Source of the DNA: an uncultured Draconibacterium sp.
Lineage (GTDB): Bacteria > Bacteroidota > Bacteroidia > Bacteroidales > Prolixibacteraceae
Reading direction: 5' to 3'
Assembly: GCF_963675585.1 (NCBI RefSeq)
Contig: NZ_OY776414.1
Span: forward strand, 4,219,613-4,283,612
Length of the DNA: 64,000 nucleotides
Below the pieces are notes generated by a model. The model saw nothing but the letters and a program-made list of their open reading frames with translations, was not told the DNA's origin and made no database searches. Of the stretch, positions 3,364 to 64,000 are shown piece by piece. Position numbers and translations under genes: made by a program. How positions within the stretch are numbered: position 1 is the stretch's first letter; the number at the start of each line of letters is the position of its first letter.

Positions 3364-6300
3364 TTAAAATTCTAATTCTATTCCAAATCCATAGTACCTA
3401 AGTGTTGGGTAGTTTCTACCACTGTTCGCTCCGGTACCGCCTGCACCGCCCATGTTATTGCCAAACTCTGTCGATTCAGGATCGATAAATGACACATTAG
3501 AGAGCGTTAGTAAGTTTTGCGCGTTTACGCTAAGTCGCAGTTTCTGAATGCCTGCTTTTGCTGTCAGTTCTTTTGGTAAAGTGTAACCCAACTGAATATT
3601 TTTTAAACGCAGGTAGGCTGCATTAAACAAATAGATGTCGGAACTTTTCTGGTAGTTGTTGGTGTTCGATGCCGAGCCTGGTGACGATAAACGCGGCCAC
3701 TCAGCATTGGGATTTACCGGAGTCCAGAAGTCGAGCTGGTGTGTATAAGTTACATACGAATAGTTGGAGTGAAAAGGCTCAACCAATTCTCCGCGTAAAA
3801 ACATATCACGTTTTCCAACTCCCTGTACCAAAGCACTGAAATCAAATCCTTTCCAGGTTAAATCGTAGGTAAAACCAATGGTATAACGTGGAAAAGCATT
3901 TCCTAAAACCTGACGGTCTTTGTCATCGATTACACCGTCGTTATTTGAATCCAGGTATTTTACATCGCCGGGCTGAACGGTTGCTCCAATTGGCAGAGCA
4001 CTGTTTTCAATCTCTTCGTAACTTTGAAACAAACCATCGGTTTTGTATCCAAAATAAGAACCAAGTGCTTCTCCTTCGCGGATAATTTTTTGCATCTGGT
4101 CGCTCGAGTTGATTTGTTCGTTTCCACCAAAATCGGTCACTTCGTTTTTCGAATCAGCCAAAACCAATTTAAAATCGTGACGTACTTTTCCGGTGGTTGC
4201 ATGGTATCCAATGGTTGCTTCCCATCCCTGATTTTTCATTTTACCGGCATTTTCTTTGGCAACCGCACCTCCAAATACCGTTGGAACAACTGGTGTAAGA
4301 AGAATATTTGAAGTAATCTTATTGAAATAATCCAAGGAAACATAAAGTTTGTTGTCCAAGAAGGTTCCGTCTAAACCAACGTTAAAGTTGGCCGATTCTT
4401 CCCAGCGCAGTTCGCTGTTACCAAAATCGAATCCGGTTCCCGAAACGGCATTGTTGTTAAAACCGTACGAGTTGGTATATACCGAGTAAGTAGTGAAATA
4501 AGAATAATCATCAACATTTTGGTTACCCAAAATACCATACGATCCCCGTAGTTTTAAATCACCTACTTTTTCTTTGTAAGTGGTCATAAAGTTTTCTTCC
4601 GACAAACGCCAGCCACCGGTTACCGATGGGAAAAATCCCCAACGAAAATCTTCGGCAAATTTTGATGAACCATCGTAACGGAAACTCACTTCACCGTAGT
4701 ATTTGTCTTTAAAACTGTAGCCTGCGCGACCAAACAACGAATAAATACTGCGCTCCTGCGTTTGTGCCGGTGTATTGTAACTGGTCGGATCAATTTCAGT
4801 TTCCGATTCGGGCAGACCTAAATCACGGTCGGTGTACCGCATCTTAATTTCGTTGGCCTTCCTGGTGTACGATTCATTCGATACGCCAATAAAACCATTT
4901 ACGTTATGGTCTTCGCTAAATGTACGTTTGTAGTCTAAAATGAACTGAGAATTCAGCACGTACTTTTTCTCGTTGTAATCTTCGGTGTTGCGTGTTTTAT
5001 TGGCATACGAACTTGGAATAGTTGCTGTTTCGCTGGCATAAAAAGGCACTTCCAATCCTCTTATGTACCTGTGGTTTGCACTCAAATCCAAACCAACCAA
5101 ACCTTTTACCGAAAAACCTTTTGCCAGTTCAAGCTCCATGTTTAAACTTCCCAAAAAGTTGTCGTTATCGTGTTTCTGAAAACCACCGGCTTCGAGTACT
5201 CCCAGCGGATTAAATTCCGAAAGCACATCGTTAATCAGGTAATTTCCGTTTTCGGCCTGCATTTTATAGTTGTAGTAATTCGGAATACGTCCGCCATCCA
5301 CAATTAAAGTTCCGGCACTTGAGTTCGGCGCATTTTGCAAACTTCGGTTGTACGCCATCAAGGCACTTAACTTTAGCTTTCCGTATTCGTTTACCAGGTT
5401 GGTTCTGAAGTTGTATCGTTCGGCACCGTAACCTCCCACAAAGTTACTTTCCTGGTCGTAATAACCGGCCGAAATCATGTAGGTAGAATTCTCGCTTCCG
5501 CCCGATACACTGGCACTGTAATTTTGTTGCAATGCACTTTGCAGAATGCCGTCCAAAAACCACTCTCCATCGCCATTTTCCTGTAAATCCCTAATTTCCG
5601 CAGGAGAATAAACCGGAGAAGAACCGCCATTGATCCAGGCCTGGTTTTTCAATATTGCATTTTCGTATCCTTTTACCGGCGAGTACAATACATTTGGATC
5701 TTGCATACCCGCCATCATATTAAAACGTACCACCGGACGACCTGATTTTGTACCTTTTTTGGTTGTAATCAGAATAACTCCGTTTGACGAGCGCGAACCG
5801 TAAATGGCAGCACTACCGGCATCTTTAAGTATCGATACATTTTCAATATCCGCAGGATTCAGTTCGTTTAAACTTTCCATTTCGGTAATTAATCCGTCGA
5901 TAACAAGCAAAGGATCGTTGTTATTCATGGTACTAATACCACGGATATTAATGTTCATGCTATTGTCGTTCGGATTCATGCTTCGTTGCTGAATGGTAAG
6001 GTTTGCCGAAGCTCCCTGTAAAGCCTGCGAAGCATTACTTACCGGTCGGTTTTCGATAATTCCAGAATTGATCTGATCAACAGCACCAATCAGATTCTTT
6101 TTCTGACGGGTACCATAACCAACCACAACAACCTCTTCAACCCCAATTACATCTTCCTGCAATACAATATCGATGTTGGTTCTTCCTCCAACAACAACAT
6201 CCTGAGAAATCATCCCTATAAATGAAAAACCAATTGTAGCATCTTCGGGTATGTCTTTCAGAATATAATTTCCATCAATATCGGAAATTGTACCACTGGT

Positions 6301-53591: not shown

Positions 53592-54900
53592 TTACGAATT
53601 GGCACTGCTATACACCTCGAAATGAGCCTGCAAGCTTTCGCCAAGTTTTTTTGCCAATTCAGCCTGTCCGGCAGTTCTGGCAATGCGTTCCATATTTTGC
53701 ATGTAGAACAGATCTCGTTGAATTTCTTCACTTATTCCACTGCTAAACCTGAATTTTCTGTCGAGCGAGAAATAGAAGTTCAGTTCGTCGTTAAAGTTAT
53801 CAAATGCCTGTTCAATCATTGCAACTCCCTTTTCTGTTGCCCCGGCTTTTAAATAACTGTCGGCCAAATTCATTGCAAAATATTCGTACGGAACCAGTTC
53901 GTGAGGAATAAGCTCGTTGCAACGATCGATTACAGCGATTGCCGAGTCTTTTTTTCCTTCAGCGATTAAGGCAGTAGCCAAACGATTAAAACTGTTTCTG
54001 ATGTTGGTCATCATCCGGGTATTGGTTTCGTCCAGATACACATCCGGATTATTCATTCCTCCCCATTTGAATTTATTCATCAGGTTATCGTACATCAATT
54101 TAGTTTCAACCCTGCCAAACTGCAATTGCTGCGGCGAACTTTGTGATTTAATGGGCACCAAACGATACGCAAAACCTTCTACCTGGAAATAATCCTCCAG
54201 ATTCAGATATTTGCTTCGGCCAACCGTAATCGCCCAGTAAATGGGGCGTTCCCAGTTGTTTGTTGCCAGCAGGTCGAGTATCATCATTTCGTCTTTCGAC
54301 AACATATTTTTGTCCGCAACATCAATCACAATTTCATCAACAATTTTATCATAGTCTTCCGGAGCAACCACTTTATTTCGAATAACTGCTTCCTTATCAA
54401 CCTTAAATTTGATTGTTTTTTTAGGAATATAAGCCGCATTATCGGCCTGAGTTAATTTAGTTGCAGGATTGTCATTGGCAATAAAATCGACCGCCTCTTT
54501 TAATCCCACATAATCGCGTTTGATTCTTGGATTGTCAACAATATAAACCGCATCGCGGGTTCCCAAACGATACTGTTCAGATCTTAAAGTAAACGGCAGT
54601 GGCTCCGATTCGTATGCTTTTCGTCGCATTTGATCGATGTACCAGTCGGTTTGTAAATAACTCAGGTTACAAACGCGCATATCAGTTCTTACTCCTTCTA
54701 CTTCCTGGTTGTACCACAGCGGGAAGGTATCGTTGTCGCCATTGGTAAAAATAACACCATTGGGTTTGCAGGTTTCCAGGTAATTTGCTCCAAAATCGCG
54801 GGCAGTATAACGTCCCGAACGATCGTGGTCGTCCCAGTTTTCAGCCGCCATAATTCCGGGAACCAAAATCAAAACGATTACACCGGTAACTCCGGCGGCA
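53592..54900 (-). CDS. DUF2723 membrane protein, C-terminal half only
   Basis: About 436 residues remain. The fragment begins in a membrane segment (GVTGVIVLILVPGIMAAENWDD, of which the last part is the conserved ENWDDHDRSGRYTARDFGANY motif). It then has NGDNDTFPLWYNQEVEGVRTD and a TPR-like helical C-terminus (about 330-436). In complete homologues several hundred residues with many membrane spans precede this, so the N-terminal half is missing. The frame continues to 55070, but codons beyond about 54,900 are Ser/Thr/Arg-rich out-of-frame reading of the PHP-like gene. The break is the contig junction. Confidence 0.85.
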
Positions 54901-54920
54901 ATGGTTTCCGGGATGAGTAC
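54880..54920. other. Probable chimeric contig junction
   Basis: To the left, DUF2723 coding sequence is intact up to about 54,900. To the right, a plus-strand gene begins without its natural upstream region. Composition, codon choice and ribosome-binding sites change here all at once. No repeat, tRNA, integrase or insertion sequence marks the point. The exact base cannot be fixed without homologues. Confidence 0.8.
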
Positions 54921-56067
54921 TCTGCGTTGGTATGCCCTGGGCACGGTGGATTTTGATGTTTTGGACGGCGTAGATGAGACACTAGAATCTGCCGATCTAG
55001 CAGGTGTTCGCGCGGTAGCCGGTATGGAGACACGGACCTTTGTTCCCGAGTTTGCTGACGATGAGATCAATTCTCCGGGCGAGCCCGGTGTGTGCTATCA
55101 CGTAGGGCTGGGTTTTTGCTCTCGGCAGGTGCCCCCAAAGGCCGGTAGGGTGCTCGCTCAGATGCGTGCTGGCGCAGAGCAGCGAAATCGCGCAATGTTT
55201 GAGCGTATTATGCCTGCGCTTGCCCCATTGACACTCGATTACGATCGGGACGTTCAATCGCTCACGCCAGCGGGTAATGCCACTGAGCGCCATATTCTTG
55301 TGGCCCTCGATGCTGCTGCGCGCGAACTCTATCCCGATCGTTGTGATCTGCTGGCTTTTTGGACCGCAAAGTTGGGTCTGAGCCCGGAAAAGGTAGAAGC
55401 GGGCATTGGCTTGGAGCCGGGGCCTAGCGACCTGGTTCGTTCGCGCTTGATGAAGCGGGGTGGCGTTGGCTATGTGCAGCCTGGTCCCGACACATTCCCC
55501 ATGTTTGCGGATGTGGCTCAGGCTATTATAGCCGCTGGGGCCATTCCCACCCTCGCCTGGCTGGATGGTTCTACATCTGGTGAGCAGCGCCTGCCCGAGA
55601 TGCTGGAACTGATGGTTGCACGGGGTGTCGGAGCATTTAACATCATTCCAGATCGAAACTGGAACTTCGCCGATGCGGCATTGCGTAAAACCCGTGTGGC
55701 CGCGCTTTACGAGGCGGTTGAACTGGCTCGTGAGTTCTCGTTGCCTGTGGTAGTTGGCACAGAGCTAAACAAACCAGGCCAGCGCATCCTCGATGATTTC
55801 AATGCAGAACCGTTGGTGCCGCTTCATGACGAGTTCACCAGAGGGACGGATTTTTGCTATGGCCACACTGTTATGGAGAGAGCTTGGGGAATAGGCTATC
55901 AAAGTGACTGGGCTGCGCGCTATCTTGGTTCGCGCCAGGAACGCAACGCTTTTTATATCGAGGCTGGGAGACTGATTCCTCCAGGCGCCGAAACACTGGC
56001 ACGACTTCGAGCCGTATCTGTCCCCGAGTTGCCGGATCGGGTTTTGGGAGTTCTTGCCCAATTGTAG
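54901..56067 (+). CDS. PHP-like metal-dependent phosphoesterase-type protein, probably lacking its N-terminus
   Basis: 388 residues can be read from the ATG at 54901; another ATG at 54913 begins MSTLRWYALGTVDFD. I see a PHP-like pattern: AGVRAVAGMETRTFVPEF (like vipGvE), CYHVGLGF, IIAAGAIPTLAWLDG (like the AGGxxvlAHP strand) and FSLPVVVGTELNKPG near the end. The usual first HxH motif of PHP proteins is not present, which fits loss at the junction. GC-rich codon use sets it apart from everything to its left. It ends 4 bases before a bidirectional terminator. The substrate is unknown. Confidence 0.6.
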   Translation: MVSGMSTLRWYALGTVDFDVLDGVDETLESADLAGVRAVAGMETRTFVPEFADDEINSPGEPGVCYHVGLGFCSRQVPPKAGRVLAQMRAGAEQRNRAMFERIMPALAPLTLDYDRDVQSLTPAGNATERHILVALDAAARELYPDRCDLLAFWTAKLGLSPEKVEAGIGLEPGPSDLVRSRLMKRGGVGYVQPGPDTFPMFADVAQAIIAAGAIPTLAWLDGSTSGEQRLPEMLELMVARGVGAFNIIPDRNWNFADAALRKTRVAALYEAVELAREFSLPVVVGTELNKPGQRILDDFNAEPLVPLHDEFTRGTDFCYGHTVMERAWGIGYQSDWAARYLGSRQERNAFYIEAGRLIPPGAETLARLRAVSVPELPDRVLGVLAQL

Positions 56068-56070
56068 AAA

Positions 56071-56098
56071 AAAGGCCCGACAAAAAGTCGGGCCTTTT
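56071..56098. terminator. Bidirectional terminator between convergent genes
   Basis: AAAGGCCCGAC (56071-56081) pairs with GTCGGGCCTTT (56087-56097) around AAAAA, an 11-bp perfect stem with A-run before and T-run after. It serves the PHP-like gene on the plus strand and the minus-strand gene that stops at 56107. Confidence 0.92.
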
Positions 56099-56106
56099 AC
56101 TATGTA

Positions 56107-56757
56107 CTACTGTTGACGCAGGTTTACATTTTCATAGCAGCCTGCCTGTGCGTGGAATACCTGGTTTTCGTTGCCGGTCAGTGGCATTTCTTCACCGCCG
56201 ATGACGAGTTTGGCGATCTGAATGTCAGTGTTGTTCTCGACATAGAATTCATACCAGCCTTGGGCATTTGTTGTGGCGGGTACGTCATAGTACCAATCAT
56301 CGATGGTGATATAAACGCTAGCTCCTGCAACTACGTTGTTCTCACGGTCAAAGACCTGCCCCTTGACGGTTCCTTGGCTAGAACCGTGTTCAATGCAACC
56401 GTTGTACTCGACAACATAGTAACCCTCGAGTGGATCAGGGGTGGGTGTGTTGGTTGGCAAGGGAGCCAGTGTAGATACCTGGGTTGGGACAACATAAGGC
56501 GTCAGGGTGGGCACAAGTGTTGCTGTGGCGACAAGGCCGTTCTGAGTTGGCTGTGGCGTGAGTGTTGGGATGAGTGTATTAGTTAGCGTTGTTTCGGCAC
56601 CAGCCACGCCTGTCGCTGTTGCAGTTGTGGCGCGTGTGCCCAATATGGCGTCAAGGGCCCCCTCACGATAGATGAGGTAGCCTAGTGTTACTACGACCAT
56701 GATGACAATGATCAGAGCGGCGAGAGCAAGATAGAAGGCAGTTTTCTGTTGCGACAT
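56107..56757 (-). CDS. Membrane-anchored protein with Thr/Pro stalk and carboxypeptidase-regulatory-like domain
   Basis: 216 residues. An N-terminal membrane anchor (about 7-29, YLALAALIIVIMVVVTLGYL) is followed by a low-complexity stalk rich in Thr and Pro (about 42-108, with repeated TPTLTP-like blocks). A C-terminal Ig-like/regulatory domain (about 125-216, VKGQVFDRENNVVAGASVYI, GWYEFYVENN) has two Cys (CIEHG and CYEN) that could pair. It is preceded by a GGAGAG ribosome site. Such stalked anchored proteins are common in Chloroflexota. It is likely displayed outside the membrane; ligand unknown. Confidence 0.75.
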   Translation of the reverse strand: MSQQKTAFYLALAALIIVIMVVVTLGYLIYREGALDAILGTRATTATATGVAGAETTLTNTLIPTLTPQPTQNGLVATATLVPTLTPYVVPTQVSTLAPLPTNTPTPDPLEGYYVVEYNGCIEHGSSQGTVKGQVFDRENNVVAGASVYITIDDWYYDVPATTNAQGWYEFYVENNTDIQIAKLVIGGEEMPLTGNENQVFHAQAGCYENVNLRQQ

Positions 56758-56847
56758 GTAACTCTCCAGATATCCAGATCAGACGGCGCGAAACAATGAG
56801 CCGCCCGTTGCGTATAGATAGTACGCATATACAGCCAGGAGGTAGCG

Positions 56848-57417
56848 ATGGCTGATGTCCTCAAGATGTTCCAGGATCAGGCGCAGAAAATGATCGAGCA
56901 GATCAATGACAAAGGTGGCTTGCGCGGCATGATAGATGGACTGCGCAATCGCATTGAAGAAGCAGACCGCAAGCGCGATGTGAATCGTGTCAGGGTGGAG
57001 CTAGAACGGCTTGATACCCAATATGCCGATCTGACGCGAGCGATAGGTCTCGAAGCGGTTTCACTTTATGAGCGCAATATGCTCAAGACGCCAGAACTCG
57101 AGCCTTTGTGCCAGCATGTTTCAGATATACACAAAATGTTGGAATCGAAAAAGCAAGAGCTCGCCCAACTAGAGGCAGAGGCTGCTGCGGAACAGGCCGC
57201 GCGAGCTGCGCAGGCTCAAGCCCAGACTCGGTGCAGTGTTTGCGGCAACCCTCTCCCCGAAACAGGCGCCTTTTGTGCGAGTTGCGGAGCCCCAATCCAT
57301 GGCCGCACCACACCTTCGCCAGCAGGGCCTTCTCATTGCCCAGTGTGCAATGCGGAAATCCGCCTGGGCGCCAAGTTCTGTGGACGCTGTGGAGCTGATG
57401 TATCCACCAGCAACTAG
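56848..57417 (+). CDS. Coiled-coil protein with two C-terminal zinc ribbons
   Basis: 189 residues, preceded by AGGAGG seven bases before the ATG. Residues 1-125 are helical with heptads and a run of Ala/Gln/Glu (LAQLEAEAAAEQAARAAQAQ), a coiled coil. Then come two CxxC...CxxC ribbons: CSVCGNP with CASCGAP, and CPVCNAE with CGRCGAD. Double zinc ribbons of this type appear in many membrane-linked regulatory or scaffold proteins. The gene lies divergent from the stalked membrane protein, 90 bases apart. Function not assigned. Confidence 0.8.
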   Translation: MADVLKMFQDQAQKMIEQINDKGGLRGMIDGLRNRIEEADRKRDVNRVRVELERLDTQYADLTRAIGLEAVSLYERNMLKTPELEPLCQHVSDIHKMLESKKQELAQLEAEAAAEQAARAAQAQAQTRCSVCGNPLPETGAFCASCGAPIHGRTTPSPAGPSHCPVCNAEIRLGAKFCGRCGADVSTSN

Positions 57418-57471
57418 CCTCCTCATTCTATCCACAGCCTTTGACATTGCAACTGGATGCATAATTTACCG

Positions 57472-57500
57472 TTGACCGGCGTTCTACCAGTTGCTAGAAT
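57472..57500 (+). promoter_or_regulatory. Sigma70-type promoter for the kinase pair
   Basis: TTGACC (57472-57477), a 17-base spacer, then TAGAAT (57495-57500). The ribosome site AGGAGGAG (57527-57534) and ATG at 57536 follow. A second -35-like TTGACA at 57441 lacks a well-spaced -10. This promoter type also differs from those of the left part. Confidence 0.6.
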
Positions 57501-57535
57501 GGGTTGGATGCTGCGGATGAATGTTAGGAGGAGAT

Positions 57536-58297
57536 ATGGCTTGGCTTCCCGATGGAACACCGCTGAAAGGCAAGCTCTTTATCGTTGAGGGCATTGATGG
57601 TTCTGGCAAAAGTACGCAGCTCGACCTGGTTTACAAATGGTTGCGTACAGAAGGATATGTCGTTTCATTTAGCGAATGGAACTCTTCTCCTGTCGTCCGG
57701 CAGACGACAAAACGTGGCAAGAAAAAGCAGATGTTGACGCCAACCACGTTCAGCATCATTCATGCGGTGGACCTTTCTGACCGCGTGCAGCAGCAAATGA
57801 TTCCTGCACTCAAGGCTGGAGCCGTTGTATTGGCTGATCGGTATATCTATACGGCGTTTGCTCGCGATGGTGCCAGAGGGGTTGATCCTAGCTGGGTCCG
57901 CGATATGTATGCCTTTGCCATCCGCCCCACGATGGCCTTTTATTTTCGCGTAACCCTGGAAGAATCACTCAAGCGCATTATTACAGGGCGCCCCTCGCTC
58001 AAATACTATGAAGCAGGGATGGATTTGGGACTTTCGGATGACCCTTATGAGAGCTATCGGCTCTTTCAGGGGCGCATTCTTGAAGAATATGACAGTATGA
58101 TTAACGAATTCGGGCTTACTGTCATCGATGCCACGCTTCCCATTGTCGATCAACAGGAAACGCTGCGCTCTTATATCCGCCCCCATCTCAAGGATGTGCT
58201 CAAAACCTCTCCCAGCCCTTGGGACGGTGTTCTTGCCCAAGAAGGTTTGTCGGGGATTTATCTGGACGAGATAAACCGGGGAGGGCCGCAGGAATGA
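57536..58297 (+). CDS. Thymidylate-kinase-like P-loop kinase, first of a tandem pair
   Basis: 253 residues from ATG 57536, chosen for AGGAGG just upstream. Walker A is GIDGSGKST with K25, and a TMPK-like DRY motif reads LADRYIYTAFARDGARG. Where thymidylate kinases have REPGGT it has SEWNSSPV, so the base-binding side differs. A C-terminal extension of about 35 residues (HPxxxx region to PQE) goes beyond the usual TMPK length of about 210. It phosphorylates a nucleotide or related small substrate; dTMP is not proven. Its stop overlaps the start of the next kinase gene by 4 bases. Confidence 0.85.
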   Translation: MAWLPDGTPLKGKLFIVEGIDGSGKSTQLDLVYKWLRTEGYVVSFSEWNSSPVVRQTTKRGKKKQMLTPTTFSIIHAVDLSDRVQQQMIPALKAGAVVLADRYIYTAFARDGARGVDPSWVRDMYAFAIRPTMAFYFRVTLEESLKRIITGRPSLKYYEAGMDLGLSDDPYESYRLFQGRILEEYDSMINEFGLTVIDATLPIVDQQETLRSYIRPHLKDVLKTSPSPWDGVLAQEGLSGIYLDEINRGGPQE

Positions 58298-59001
58298 CTC
58301 TGGCACATTTCTATGGCAAAGGATTGCCCGGATATGAGGGTGTGATGCTGCCTGGCAAGCTGTTGGTGCTGGAAGGGCCAGATGGCGTAGGTCGTTCAAC
58401 GCAGATCGCTCTGCTTCGCGAGTGGCTGGAAGCAAAGGGTTTTGCGGTATCTTATTCAGGACTCAAGCGCTCCGAACTGGCTAGCAAAGGGATTGCCTCA
58501 GCCAAACAGGGGCATACGCTTGATGAGCGTACTATGAACTTGTTTTATGTTGCTGATCTTGCCGACCGTTTGGAGCGAGAGATTATTCCGGCGCTGAAAG
58601 CCGGTTTTGTTGTGGTTACCGATCGGTACATGTACTCGCTCATCGCTCGTTCGGTTGTGCGCGGTGTGAATGCCGAATATATCCGGGCTGTGTTGGGCTT
58701 TTGTCTAATCCCCGATGCTGTGTTCTATCTCAAAACTAATCTTGACCATCTGATTCCGCGAGTTTTGCGCAAAGGCGGTTTTGATTATTGGGAAGCAGGC
58801 GTCGATTTTCAACATAAATCTGATTACTATGATTGTTATTGCCAGTACCAATCACAGATGCTGGCCGAGTTCGATCGGCTTGGTAAGGAATATGCTTTCA
58901 GGAATATTGATGCAACGCGCTCTATTGATGCCGTATTCACTGAACTGAAAGATGAAATTGGTCAGATCGTTCTAGAGCTCAAACCCTCGAACAGCATCTA
59001 G
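58294..59001 (+). CDS. Thymidylate-kinase-like protein with altered Walker A
   Basis: 235 residues from the ATG that overlaps the previous stop (ATGA). The P-loop is GPDGVGRST, with Arg34 in the place of the catalytic Lys. The DRY motif is kept (VVTDRYMYSLIARSVVRG). The REPGGT motif is replaced by GLKRSEL. It aligns with the first kinase across its length but lacks the C-terminal extension. Loss of the Lys usually weakens or abolishes phosphotransfer, so this could be a regulatory or pseudo-kinase partner forming a heterodimer. A terminator follows 29 bases later. Confidence 0.83.
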   Translation: MTLAHFYGKGLPGYEGVMLPGKLLVLEGPDGVGRSTQIALLREWLEAKGFAVSYSGLKRSELASKGIASAKQGHTLDERTMNLFYVADLADRLEREIIPALKAGFVVVTDRYMYSLIARSVVRGVNAEYIRAVLGFCLIPDAVFYLKTNLDHLIPRVLRKGGFDYWEAGVDFQHKSDYYDCYCQYQSQMLAEFDRLGKEYAFRNIDATRSIDAVFTELKDEIGQIVLELKPSNSI

Positions 59002-59030
59002 TTCTTCAATGGAACCCTGTTTTCAGATAG

Positions 59031-59062
59031 AAGGTCAGTACTGTATGTGTGCTGGCCTTTTT
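59031..59062 (+). terminator. Rho-independent terminator after the kinase pair
   Basis: AAGGTCAG (59031-59038) pairs with CTGGCCTT (59052-59059), including one G-T pair, followed by TTTTT. It ends the two-gene kinase transcript just before the FGGY-like gene's ribosome site. Confidence 0.65.
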
Positions 59063-59084
59063 GTCATACACCGGAGGCTTGGTT

Positions 59085-60551
59085 ATGGCACTGTTGGGCA
59101 TCTCGATAAGTGGGACTTTGTGCAGCGCTGATATCTATAGCGAAGACGGCCGGTTACTATCCAGAAAAAGGGCGGCATTCCCGGTCGAAAGATATCAGGA
59201 TGTACAGGCAGCACTGCCCGCCAGAATCTGGGAAGCGTTTTGCACGGCTATCAAGGGCGCTGTCTCTGAAACAGATCAGGCAAATCTATCAGCCCTTTGC
59301 ATTACGGGCGGTGGCGATGGTCTTGTAGCCCTTGATCGTGCCTCAGTGCCGCTTGGCCCCTGTGTCTTTCGCACTGCGTCGGCTATGCACTGCGCCTCTT
59401 CTGAGTTGCCCCCAGATATTTTTTTCGAGATGACGGGGCGGTTCGCCACGGATCTGACTGGGCTGGATACACTCTCTTGGTATAACCAGAAATACCGCGG
59501 ATTCTTTGGGCAGTTGTGGCGTTATGTGCCAGTGGAGACCTGGCTTCAAGTCAAACTCGGTGGTCAGGCTATCGTCGATGCCTCACTCGGTTCTAGGGCC
59601 TTGTGTCTGGATATTCGCGATAACACTTGGTCTCGGCAGCTATTGGATCCCTGTGGCATTCGAGAGGCGCATTTGCCGCCTATTGTGCAATCAGCTAGTT
59701 TGGCCGGACGGCTCTCTGCAGATGCCGCTTCTGAACTGGGTTTGGATTCTCACGTCCAGCTGGTAGTTGGTGGTTGGGATCGAGCGTGTGAGGCTCTGGG
59801 GGCTGGCGTATTGGAGCCGGCCAAAAGTGCGCTCTATTGCATGCAATCGTCCTTTGATTTGATCCCCTCTTTTGCGGCTATCTCGCTTACCGCGCTTTTG
59901 CTCAAAAACGGCATCAGTATGACGCCGCATGTACAGAACGAAGCCTTGTTGGGCGTTTGGCAAGTGCGAGAAGGAGGGGCCATGCTACGCTGGTTCCGCG
60001 ACCAGATCGCTAGGCAGGAGACGGCCGAGGCCCGCAGCCGTGGCTACAATGTTTATGAGAGGTTGTTGGCAGAAATGCCGGATTATCCTACCGAGCTGCT
60101 GTATCGGCCTCCTGCGCAAGATCGTTCAACCTCTGTACTGGAGGGTCTCAAGTCCGATACATCGCGGAGTGAACTATTACGCGGGTTGGTGGAGGGTATA
60201 ACTGAAGAAATGACCGAGGGGCTTGAACGTTTTGGGCATGTAGGTATTCCCGTGGAGACGCTGCATACGACGGGAATAGGCGCTTACTCCGATGTGCTTT
60301 TGCAGCTTACAGCCGATATTTCTGGGTGTGAGATCCTCAAAATGGAACAGCCCAACGCCGACACACTCGGCGCAGCCCTGATTGCCGCATGTGGCGCTGG
60401 GGTTTATGAGAGCCTGGAAGAAGCTGTGGCCAATGCCGTGCGGGTGGCCGCTCGTTACGAACCACGGCCAGCATTGCACGAGGTTTATGTCGCGAGGCGC
60501 GAATCCCGTCGGGGAAATCGGCCTCGCGGTGAGATGCTTCAAGAGATCTAG
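59085..60551 (+). CDS. FGGY-family carbohydrate kinase-like protein, divergent
   Basis: 488 residues from ATG 59085, with GGAGG eight bases upstream; a longer frame from 59049 is less likely. The FGGY/ASKHA layout is visible: ALLGISISGTLCSAD at the start, CITGGGDGLVALDR, VGGWDRACEALGAG with the catalytic-type Asp, and GIGAYSDVLLQLTAD in the C-domain. The first phosphate-loop Asp of the GxDxGT motif is Ser, and the PxxWxDxR segment reads GPCVFRTAS. It resembles xylulokinase but may have lost or altered substrate binding. Its stop shares the palindrome CTAG with the convergent peptidase gene. Confidence 0.78.
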   Translation: MALLGISISGTLCSADIYSEDGRLLSRKRAAFPVERYQDVQAALPARIWEAFCTAIKGAVSETDQANLSALCITGGGDGLVALDRASVPLGPCVFRTASAMHCASSELPPDIFFEMTGRFATDLTGLDTLSWYNQKYRGFFGQLWRYVPVETWLQVKLGGQAIVDASLGSRALCLDIRDNTWSRQLLDPCGIREAHLPPIVQSASLAGRLSADAASELGLDSHVQLVVGGWDRACEALGAGVLEPAKSALYCMQSSFDLIPSFAAISLTALLLKNGISMTPHVQNEALLGVWQVREGGAMLRWFRDQIARQETAEARSRGYNVYERLLAEMPDYPTELLYRPPAQDRSTSVLEGLKSDTSRSELLRGLVEGITEEMTEGLERFGHVGIPVETLHTTGIGAYSDVLLQLTADISGCEILKMEQPNADTLGAALIAACGAGVYESLEEAVANAVRVAARYEPRPALHEVYVARRESRRGNRPRGEMLQEI

Positions 60552-62614
60552 TGTCCAGCTGCAAGCTCGGTGATCTGCCGCAGTTGCCTTGTGAGAGCTG
60601 CAAATGCTGCGGTATAGGTTTCTTCCCATGTTTGAAGCGATTTGTCATCCCCCGTTTCAAGCTCGTATCGCAACCCGGGCAGTAGCCAGGCTTCATACCC
60701 GCTATCAGGGTCTTCACAAACATAAAGCGAACGGGCCCAAGCGCTGTGTTGCAGGCCTTCTGAGCGGGTCAGGTTGCGCTCCAGTGTAAGCAACTGCTCG
60801 TTGATCTGCCCTTTGATGTCCTCAGATAGCGCAGTTGCAGCATCCTCGGCCAGAGCGGTTTCCATGGCGTAGGCAGCCCCCGCCAGCTCTTGGATGGCGG
60901 CGCGTAGTGGACTGGCGTCGAGCTTGCGACCGAGTTCTTGGGCGCGCTGAACCAAAGTCCCCAGGTGTCTGCTGAGATCAGCACCGTAACGCGAAACATC
61001 CAGGGGCAGTAGGTCAGCATCGGCCAGCCTGGTAGCAATGATGCCGTTCCAAACAGCTACAGCCGGCCCGAACTTGAACTCGGTGTCACCAAAACGCTCG
61101 TACCAGGCCATATCGTCATAATTTGTGTGGTAAAGAGGCATCGGATTGGACATGAATACTTGGGCTGCCGGAATGCCCAGATGGCTGTAGAACCCCACGT
61201 GATCCGAACCGCCGCCCAGATCGCCCATACGTGGTTCGCCGCCCGTCTTGGATTGTTCTTGCCACACCTCCAGCAGGCTCTTCTTAGTGCCGGGGTAGGC
61301 TGTATCGGCGGCGGCTTCGAGCAGCAGTTTTTTAAGCGAAGGAGCCGATTCGGCGGCGACGTTGGGACCGGTAACAGCCATGTCGGCGTTGAGATAGGCG
61401 ATGGCCGAGGTCGCCAGCTTGCTTTCAAACTGTTCAACCCACTCTGTCGAGCCAATAATGCCGTATTCTTCGGCGTCCCAATGGGCAATGGCCAATGAAC
61501 GACGCGGGCGCCAACCCTCGGTTAGCATCTGCCCCAAGGCATCAGCCAATACCAACAGCATAGCGTTGCCGCTGTTAGGGTCGGATGCGCCAAAGTTCCA
61601 GGCATCATAATGGCAACCGAGGTATAGCGTCTGCTCGGGGAATTCAGAGCCCTGGATGACACCGACAACGTTCGTTGCTCGCTTGATGCCGAGTGGCTGA
61701 TCCACGCGAACGCGAACCTGAAGCAATTCGTCGCCCTGTAGGCGGTAGGCAAAAGGCAATCCGCCTTGCCAACCCTCGGGTACGCCCTGACCGGTCATTC
61801 TTTTAAGGATTTCTTGCGCCGAGCCGTAGGGCAGGGGTGCGACTGGGATATTCAGTAGGCCGTCGACATCTGCAGGATCAAGGCGTTCAACGAGCTCATC
61901 CGAATCCAAGGGCAGGGCAGGGCCATTGGGCGTGAGCGGGTCGCCAGAGTAGCCCAGGGTCAACAGAGAACCGCGCTGCACGCAGCTATCATTGATAGCC
62001 GGCCCTTCGGGATAAGGCAATGCCTTGACATAACCAGAATCCGCAGGATCCGAGTAGATGATCAAACCGAGAGCGCCCCGTTCTTGGGCATATTTGGCTT
62101 TATAGCCGCGGAAATTGCCGCCAAAACGGGCAATAACGATCTTGCCAGCCACGGAGATGCCCAACGCATCAAGTTGCTCGTAATCTTCCTTGCGAGCGTA
62201 ATTGGCATAGACGACGGTACCGGTAACGTCACCCGATCCTGAATAGGCGTTCCATCCTGGCCCGAGGTCCGCATGGGCTGAATAAGGATCCTCAGCCAGA
62301 ATATCTTCTTGGTTGTTGAGCGCCATGCGTTTGGGCTGCACCAGATCGACACGCACTGAACAATCTGGCGAGGGCATGAGCACATCGTAGGGATATTCAG
62401 TCACTTGCAGACCGGCCGCTTTCATGCTCGTGGTGAGGTATTCGCGTACTCGGTCATTAGCAGGGGTGCCAGCGGGGTGGGGCTCCTGAGCGAGTGCTTG
62501 AAGGTGCTTTTTAAAGCCTGCTGCTGTACACAACTCGCAGAGGCGGGCTTCAAACTGGTATTGCGCCTGGCTGCGGGTAGTAGAGAATCCTCGAATTGCC
62601 TTGGTGTCAGTCAT
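60548..62614 (-). CDS. M28 peptidase of glutamate-carboxypeptidase-II (PSMA) type
   Basis: 688 residues from ATG 62614 (ribosome site GGAGG six bases upstream); the longer frame to 62749 would cross a tRNA and is rejected. A PA-like domain (about 145-270, GTVVYANYARKEDYEQLDALG) is inserted before the catalytic M28 core. Zinc ligands and base: H335 in GCHYDAW, D345 in SDPNSG, E382/E383 in WDAEEYG, a later Asp and the His in LYHTNYDDM. A C-terminal helical dimerisation-like domain follows. Human GCPII has the same order. No signal peptide is evident, so it may be cytoplasmic. Substrate is probably a peptide with an acidic C-terminus, unproven. Confidence 0.9.
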   Translation of the reverse strand: MTDTKAIRGFSTTRSQAQYQFEARLCELCTAAGFKKHLQALAQEPHPAGTPANDRVREYLTTSMKAAGLQVTEYPYDVLMPSPDCSVRVDLVQPKRMALNNQEDILAEDPYSAHADLGPGWNAYSGSGDVTGTVVYANYARKEDYEQLDALGISVAGKIVIARFGGNFRGYKAKYAQERGALGLIIYSDPADSGYVKALPYPEGPAINDSCVQRGSLLTLGYSGDPLTPNGPALPLDSDELVERLDPADVDGLLNIPVAPLPYGSAQEILKRMTGQGVPEGWQGGLPFAYRLQGDELLQVRVRVDQPLGIKRATNVVGVIQGSEFPEQTLYLGCHYDAWNFGASDPNSGNAMLLVLADALGQMLTEGWRPRRSLAIAHWDAEEYGIIGSTEWVEQFESKLATSAIAYLNADMAVTGPNVAAESAPSLKKLLLEAAADTAYPGTKKSLLEVWQEQSKTGGEPRMGDLGGGSDHVGFYSHLGIPAAQVFMSNPMPLYHTNYDDMAWYERFGDTEFKFGPAVAVWNGIIATRLADADLLPLDVSRYGADLSRHLGTLVQRAQELGRKLDASPLRAAIQELAGAAYAMETALAEDAATALSEDIKGQINEQLLTLERNLTRSEGLQHSAWARSLYVCEDPDSGYEAWLLPGLRYELETGDDKSLQTWEETYTAAFAALTRQLRQITELAAGH

Positions 62615-62719
62615 TGCGGGCCTCCGTGTTGATGCAATAACATTCGCTTCTCTGGCATACCTGTGATAAAGTGCGCCCACGTAAAAACAGACCCGCAGCA
62701 TTGCTGGCTGCGGGTAAGG

Positions 62720-62792
62720 TGCCCCAGGAGGGAGTCGAACCCCCGGCACAAGGTTTAGGAAACCTCTGCTCTATCCTCTGAGCTACTGGGGC
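62720..62792 (-). tRNA. tRNA-Arg (anticodon CCT)
   Basis: Minus strand: acceptor GCCCCAG/CTGGGGC closes perfectly, D-stem GCTC/GAGC, anticodon stem GAGGT/ACCTT with loop TTCCTAA giving anticodon CCT, T-arm with TTCGACT loop, discriminator A. No CCA is encoded. 73 bases. It reads AGG codons. It lies between the peptidase start and the glycosidase gene. Confidence 0.95.
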
Positions 62793-62833
62793 GCGAGCAG
62801 GAGTATACCATAGACACAGGAGAGCGACAAGAA

Positions 62834-63958
62834 TTGTCACCCCGACGCGTATGTAATCTGGTTCTGCGTGCTTTCATTCTGTTTGCACTGGTCTATGTGA
62901 CTAGTGCGCCTGTTCAGCGTCTGGTTACCGTTGGGGAGCAGCAGCAGGTTGAGACAAATAATCCGGTGGTTGGTGTGCATACGCGCCTGACCGATGAAGT
63001 GGAAGAATGGAAGATTCAGCAGACGCTGGTGATGGTGCGCGAGATGGGCGCCAGCTGGATTGTCGAGTATTTCCCCTGGGCCTATTACGAGCCAGAAAAG
63101 GGTGTTTACGATTTTGGCCACGCCGATATGGTGATAGAACATGCTCTGGCACAGGGTCTGAAGGTCATCGCCCGGGTGGATTATGTACCTGACTGGGCTC
63201 GTCCCGAGGATACAACGGCGCGCTATCTCGATGAAGACCATTATCAGGATTACGCCGATTTCATCTATGCTTTTTGTGAGCACTTTGAGGGGCAGCTAGA
63301 TTCCATCATCATTTGGAACGAACCTAACCTGGCCTTTGAATGGGGTTATCGTATGCCCGATCCTGAGAGCTATGTTGAGCTGCTCAAGGTAGCCTACGAG
63401 GCAGCCAAAGCAGCGGATCCTGATATTCGTGTGTTGGGTGCTGGATTGGCTCCTACGTTGGCTCCTGAAGGCAGCGAGTGGGGTATGGATGATCTACTCT
63501 ACCTGGAGCGCATGTACCAGGCGGGCGCTGCTGATTATATGGATGGTTTGGCTGTCCATGCTTACGGAATGACGGCTTCTGCCGATGATCCTGCGGATCC
63601 GCAGGCCATCAATTTCAGACGAACCGAACTTGTTCACGAGATCATGGTGACCTATGGAGACGGTGACAAGCCCTGCATCATCACCGAGGGCGGTTGGAAC
63701 GACCATCCTCGGTGGACCAAGTCGGTTAGCCCGTATCTGCGCATTCAGCACACCATCGATGCCTATGATCTGGCCATGAACGAATGGGACTGGTGCGAGG
63801 CGGTTTGTTTGTGGGTTTTCCGATTCCCCTGGCCTCAAAATACCTACCAGGACTATTTCGCCTTTGTCTCGACGGATTTTATTCCCAAACCCATCTATAC
63901 CGAGATACAACACTATGCCCACGATGAGCCCTATGATTATCTGGAGAATACGCCATGA
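62834..63958 (+). CDS. Membrane-anchored clan A glycosidase (GH39/GH5-like)
   Basis: 374 residues. The start is a TTG at 62834 with AGGAGAG about ten bases upstream. An N-terminal hydrophobic segment (about 9-25, LRAFILFALVYVTSAPV) anchors or exports it. The TIM barrel carries E163 in WNEPNLAFEWG (acid/base) and E285 in IITEGGWN (nucleophile). WIVEYFPWAYYEPEKG and VYDFGHAD are typical of GH39-like and beta-xylosidase-like sequences, but the family is not settled. It overlaps the next gene by four bases, so it is the first of an operon. Confidence 0.8.
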   Translation: MSPRRVCNLVLRAFILFALVYVTSAPVQRLVTVGEQQQVETNNPVVGVHTRLTDEVEEWKIQQTLVMVREMGASWIVEYFPWAYYEPEKGVYDFGHADMVIEHALAQGLKVIARVDYVPDWARPEDTTARYLDEDHYQDYADFIYAFCEHFEGQLDSIIIWNEPNLAFEWGYRMPDPESYVELLKVAYEAAKAADPDIRVLGAGLAPTLAPEGSEWGMDDLLYLERMYQAGAADYMDGLAVHAYGMTASADDPADPQAINFRRTELVHEIMVTYGDGDKPCIITEGGWNDHPRWTKSVSPYLRIQHTIDAYDLAMNEWDWCEAVCLWVFRFPWPQNTYQDYFAFVSTDFIPKPIYTEIQHYAHDEPYDYLENTP

Positions 63959-64000
63959 TGCACCATTACCATAGGCTGAAAGACTTGCCCGTGTGGGGGC
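63955..64000 (+). CDS. Start of a following gene, cut by window edge
   Basis: ATG at 63955 overlaps the glycosidase stop in ATGA; a second ATG follows at once. Only 15 codons are visible (MMHHYHRLKDLPVWG), too few for any assignment. Coupling by the overlap is the only evidence that it is coding. Confidence 0.45.
   Translation, partial: MMHHYHRLKDLPVWG

Follow-up and report, generated by a model that had tools for sequence, protein, structure and literature searches.

In long-read metagenomics, chimeric reads that join distinct genomes are described as a source of error (PMC12424758). One of the two genes at the joint considered here belongs to the TMEM260-like family PF11028, whose intact member in the closest relative of this genome (G007) carries the family domain at residues 35-210. 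Here we describe a joint between two genomes, almost certainly artificial, in the window (i.e., the whole stretch of 64,000 nucleotides that was analysed), which forms one end of contig C4 in this assembly (G000; contigs C1-C4). The features on which the argument rests are as follows.

53592..54914, minus strand: 3' portion of the gene for a TMEM260-like membrane protein (PF11028, formerly DUF2723), keeping residues 590-1029 of 1029; the joint cuts its upstream side
54914..54915, no strand: joint between two genomes, most likely artificial, placed by the Markov boundary and the end of homology to G007, without a repeat
54915..64000, no strand: foreign tail of 9,086 bp running to the end of contig C4, GC 0.54, delimited by composition, the contig end and comparison with relatives
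54916..56067, plus strand: PHP-like protein gene, 5' end cut, matching L029 at 47% over query residues 13-363
56107..63958, no single strand: seven further tail genes (Pfam and NCBIfam), namely a carboxypeptidase-regulatory-like, a double zinc ribbon, two dTMP-kinase-like, an FGGY kinase, an M28 peptidase and a glycosyl-hydrolase-like gene
62718..62792, minus strand: tRNA-Arg(CCT) in the tail (ARAGORN; Rfam tRNA match L003:7820-7892)

Results

The preliminary description of this DNA had placed a joint between positions 54,880 and 54,920, and an abrupt change was confirmed inside that interval. A third-order Markov model set the boundary after base 54,913, protein homology to G007 stopped at 54,914, and DNA homology to the same relative stopped at 54,915, its last 315 bases being gap-free at 85% identity. 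A cruder change point based on GC only fell at 54,796 (support interval 54,673-54,891), with a GC of 0.41 to its left and 0.54 to its right. GC3 also changed across the joint (0.36-0.44 in four genes on the left; 0.49-0.60 in eight genes on the right). When compared to the centroid of 24 sampled chunks of the same genome, equal in size to the tail, the tail displayed a tetranucleotide L1 distance of 0.539 (own-genome chunks: 0.121 ± 0.025, mean ± sd; maximum 0.182; n = 24), and its composition showed no drift towards that of the host. Repeat, 12-mer, Pfam and NCBIfam searches bore out the earlier statement that no repeat or mobile element marks the point: there was no direct repeat of at least 14 bases in 54,400-55,400, where one weak inverted pair (73% complementary) lay entirely within the tail; no 12-mer of 54,885-54,944 recurred in the window; and there was no run of N at the joint. 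The two genes that meet there are unrelated, lie in opposite orientation and are broken at one point. An abrupt compositional change at a single point, as is found in a chimeric contig, is seen here, together with a cut in both flanking genes without shared sequence, the right-hand gene being judged from one relative, L029.

On the left side, the claim that a DUF2723 gene is cut held. In a tblastn search, the G007 protein matched 440 aa in the window with 85.5% identity, up to position 54,914; of its 1029 aa only residues 590-1029 remain, and the first 589, which include the PF11028 domain, are missing. The intact protein measures 1025-1027 aa in G003, G006, G008, and G012. All 30 relatives searched had a match to the DUF2723-type protein. 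Among the 18 from the same genus, the open frame that holds the best match reached 1028 aa or more in 15; the frames in the other three measured 913 (G014), 865 (G018), and 754 aa (G015), in assemblies of 420-590 contigs. The lost N-terminal half was not found elsewhere in this assembly, where its sole match was a paralogue at 61% identity (C1:378,706-380,454). Plasmid-borne homologues of the cut protein (36-45% identity) all occurred in Parabacteroides, Phocaeicola, Bacteroides, Prevotella, and Hymenobacter (5 of 5), all genera of the Bacteroidota, which supports a Bacteroidota origin of the left side.

The right-hand gene had been thought to begin at the joint, and this part of the preliminary description did not stand, as that gene is also cut there. 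The sole relative found for the PHP-like protein was L029, from a Candidatus Hydrogenedentota MAG (47% identity over residues 13-363), recovered in a scan of genome contigs that reaches close relatives only. The L029 frame runs on upstream through the stretch HCHSFFSFNG, which is absent from the tail and which we assume to be the metal-binding motif of PHP proteins; the PHP match of the L029 protein spans this stretch and is weak (E 0.0015, short of the curated threshold). Two ATGs, at 54,901 and 54,913, fall on the Bacteroidota-type side or across its edge. In a phylum sample of 296 genomes, none of the other 295 matched the PHP-like protein. This assembly itself carries a distant homologue of it, L053 (C1:143,115-143,864; 27% identity), at a locus with a GC of 0.395.

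The right edge of the window is the end of contig C4 (4,283,612 bp), and the foreign part is a dead-end tail with a single visible junction to the host chromosome; since the contig ends inside foreign DNA, a second junction may lie beyond view. The tail is present at only one place in this assembly, is approximately 94% coding, and holds eight open frames. The only tRNA of the window lies inside it, 7.8 kb from the joint. Searched against Pfam and NCBIfam, the eight tail proteins gave metabolic or unknown families and no mobility gene, and the marks of a horizontally acquired island (an integrase, a transposase, attachment repeats, or a tRNA target at the joint) were not found. The same join in related genomes, which the preliminary description had named as evidence that would speak against a misassembly, was not seen either, as a DNA search (E <= 0.001; at most 9 candidates scored per genome) detected tail DNA in 0 of 30 relatives.

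The tail derives from another organism, presumably one in the same sample. We assign it to no phylum: the Chloroflexota-like label given in the preliminary description found no confirmation, and the one relative recovered from genome contigs, at 47% identity, belongs to Candidatus Hydrogenedentota. No relative of the PHP-like or the M28 protein was found in viral contigs, no match to tail DNA in phage records (near mode), and no match to the PHP-like protein on plasmids. Plasmid searches with one dTMP-kinase-like protein returned 26 records (24-27% identity in the eight listed); the M28 peptidase retrieved 4, with Gemmatirosa highest at 38%. In both cases the records were distant and came from mixed organisms. 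The M28 peptidase had no match in the L029 genome in a search run without a positive control. We also considered C2 as a counterpart of the tail, given its similar size (9,145 bp); it has no blastn match to the window and a GC of 0.404, and we regard the likeness in size as a coincidence.

The two adjacent dTMP-kinase-like genes (57521-59001) gave clear matches to PF02223 and scored 78.2 and 76.8 bits against TIGR00041, whose cut-off is 83.25. They are the only PF02223 matches in this assembly. Dependence of the host on them was considered as a sign that the tail belongs to this genome and was rejected, as a strong resident match is usually missing in the genus: among the same-genus relatives, a weak match was seen in 8 of 18 (E <= 0.001, best 4.8e-8) and none in 10 of 18. 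The dTMP kinase of the host genus itself may be divergent.

Gene order in relatives leads from the cut gene to a different contig. After the DUF2723-type gene, G007 carries in succession genes for a laccase (PF02578), Crp, a ferredoxin, Hcp (PF03063), and an aldolase-like protein (FBA; named by eye from sequence), and this arrangement, as far as Hcp, was also seen in G003, G006, G008, and G012 (5 of 5 relatives examined). In this assembly, Hcp and FBA lie within the last 7.3 kb of C1, with the start of Hcp 157 bases from the contig end. When a 4,601-base query from G007 was aligned to this assembly, bases 1-117 matched C4 up to the joint and bases 4533-4599 matched C1 within its last 189 bases; between these ends, only the DUF2723 paralogue matched. 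The unaligned interval measures 4.4 kb in G007, and approximately 4.3 kb is missing from this assembly. Because the gene order in the five relatives examined leads there, the end of C1 is on synteny the true neighbour of the end of C4, with the tail occupying the gap; a true continuation at another contig end, as expected of a chimeric contig, is indicated by synteny in the five relatives examined out of 18 from the same genus. Upstream of the Hcp start, C1 ends in 123 bases that found no alignment in G007, perhaps because they are intergenic sequence that has diverged. The laccase family had no match in this assembly. Of the genomes drawn for comparison, 11 of 12 from the same genus had one, the twelfth being G011, whose completeness is 73%, as did 2 of 8 from the same order but outside the genus.

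Elsewhere in the assembly, SSU rRNA genes lie beside N stretches near contig ends (L005 at the start of C1; L031 at the end of C3). These rRNA-adjoining ends of C1 and C3 are ordinary assembly break points, unlike the repeat-free joint on C4.

Discussion

The misassembly first proposed for this contig is supported by the position of the tail at a contig end, the two cut genes, the synteny with C1, and the absence of the tail from 30 relatives. We hold it nearly certain that the joint is an artefact of sequencing or assembly, counting a chimeric read and a graph error alike, and that it would accordingly not exist in the living chromosome. Of these two causes, we regard a chimeric read as the probable one. 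The assembly appears to have been made from long reads and from a metagenome, since it consists of only four contigs (4.28, 1.12, and 0.62 Mb and 9 kb). As we picture it, the contig would be genuine Bacteroidota-type chromosome up to base 54,914 of the window, and true coverage would have run out locally near the gap, a shortage of reads suggested by the joint on C4 being free of repeats. One or a few chimeric long reads could then have been taken by the assembler to extend the contig end, and such a read would have become the contig tip, giving the 9,086-base tail from another organism. An error in the assembly graph (a wrong path taken at a shared k-mer, or a join made in scaffolding) would have the same outcome, a dead-end foreign tail. 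This variety of artefact seems unlikely to us: comparing k-mers within the window gave no recurring 12-mer around the joint, and neither a direct repeat of the length searched for nor a run of N was present there.

A real horizontal transfer would mean that at least 9.1 kb of foreign DNA took the place of approximately 4.3 kb of chromosome through illegitimate recombination, removing over half of the DUF2723 gene together with the laccase, Crp, and ferredoxin genes. What speaks for it, and against an artefact, is that the interval is absent from the assembly, as a real replacement would also leave it, and that the sequence of the tail is clean, its frames being intact; if the tail came from one read, that read must have been accurate or polished. 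The loss of the laccase is possible in principle, since the family is not universal in the order (missing from 6 of 8 order-level genomes drawn). Against such a transfer stand the cut in the incoming PHP-like gene, the lack of a mobility family or repeat, the composition without drift towards the host, and the absence of tail DNA from every relative searched. Moreover, no second junction is in view, and the end of the contig would have to fall by chance within the insert, where for a real insert one would expect an assembly that runs on into C1. We therefore consider replacement by illegitimate recombination highly improbable, and give as little credence to its form as a recent, unameliorated exchange across phyla without any mobile element.

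Read as an artefact, the joint matters only as quality control: an assembly rated 100% complete with 0.91% contamination carries 9.1 kb from another organism at one contig end, and approximately 4.3 kb of conserved genes are missing beside it. Gene catalogues that draw on this assembly would attribute to the genus dTMP-kinase-like, FGGY kinase, and M28 peptidase genes that are foreign to it, and would treat this DUF2723 gene and the gene for the laccase as having been lost.

When compared to the TMEM260-like family PF11028, the copy in the window is without the domain that its intact counterpart carries near the N-terminus and starts only at residue 590. In the study of chimeric-read misassembly (PMC12424758), the assembler spots chimeric reads by the read depth at the joint, whereas the joint described here was judged from the assembled sequence; the two cases are alike in that segments of distinct genomes are stitched together at one point.
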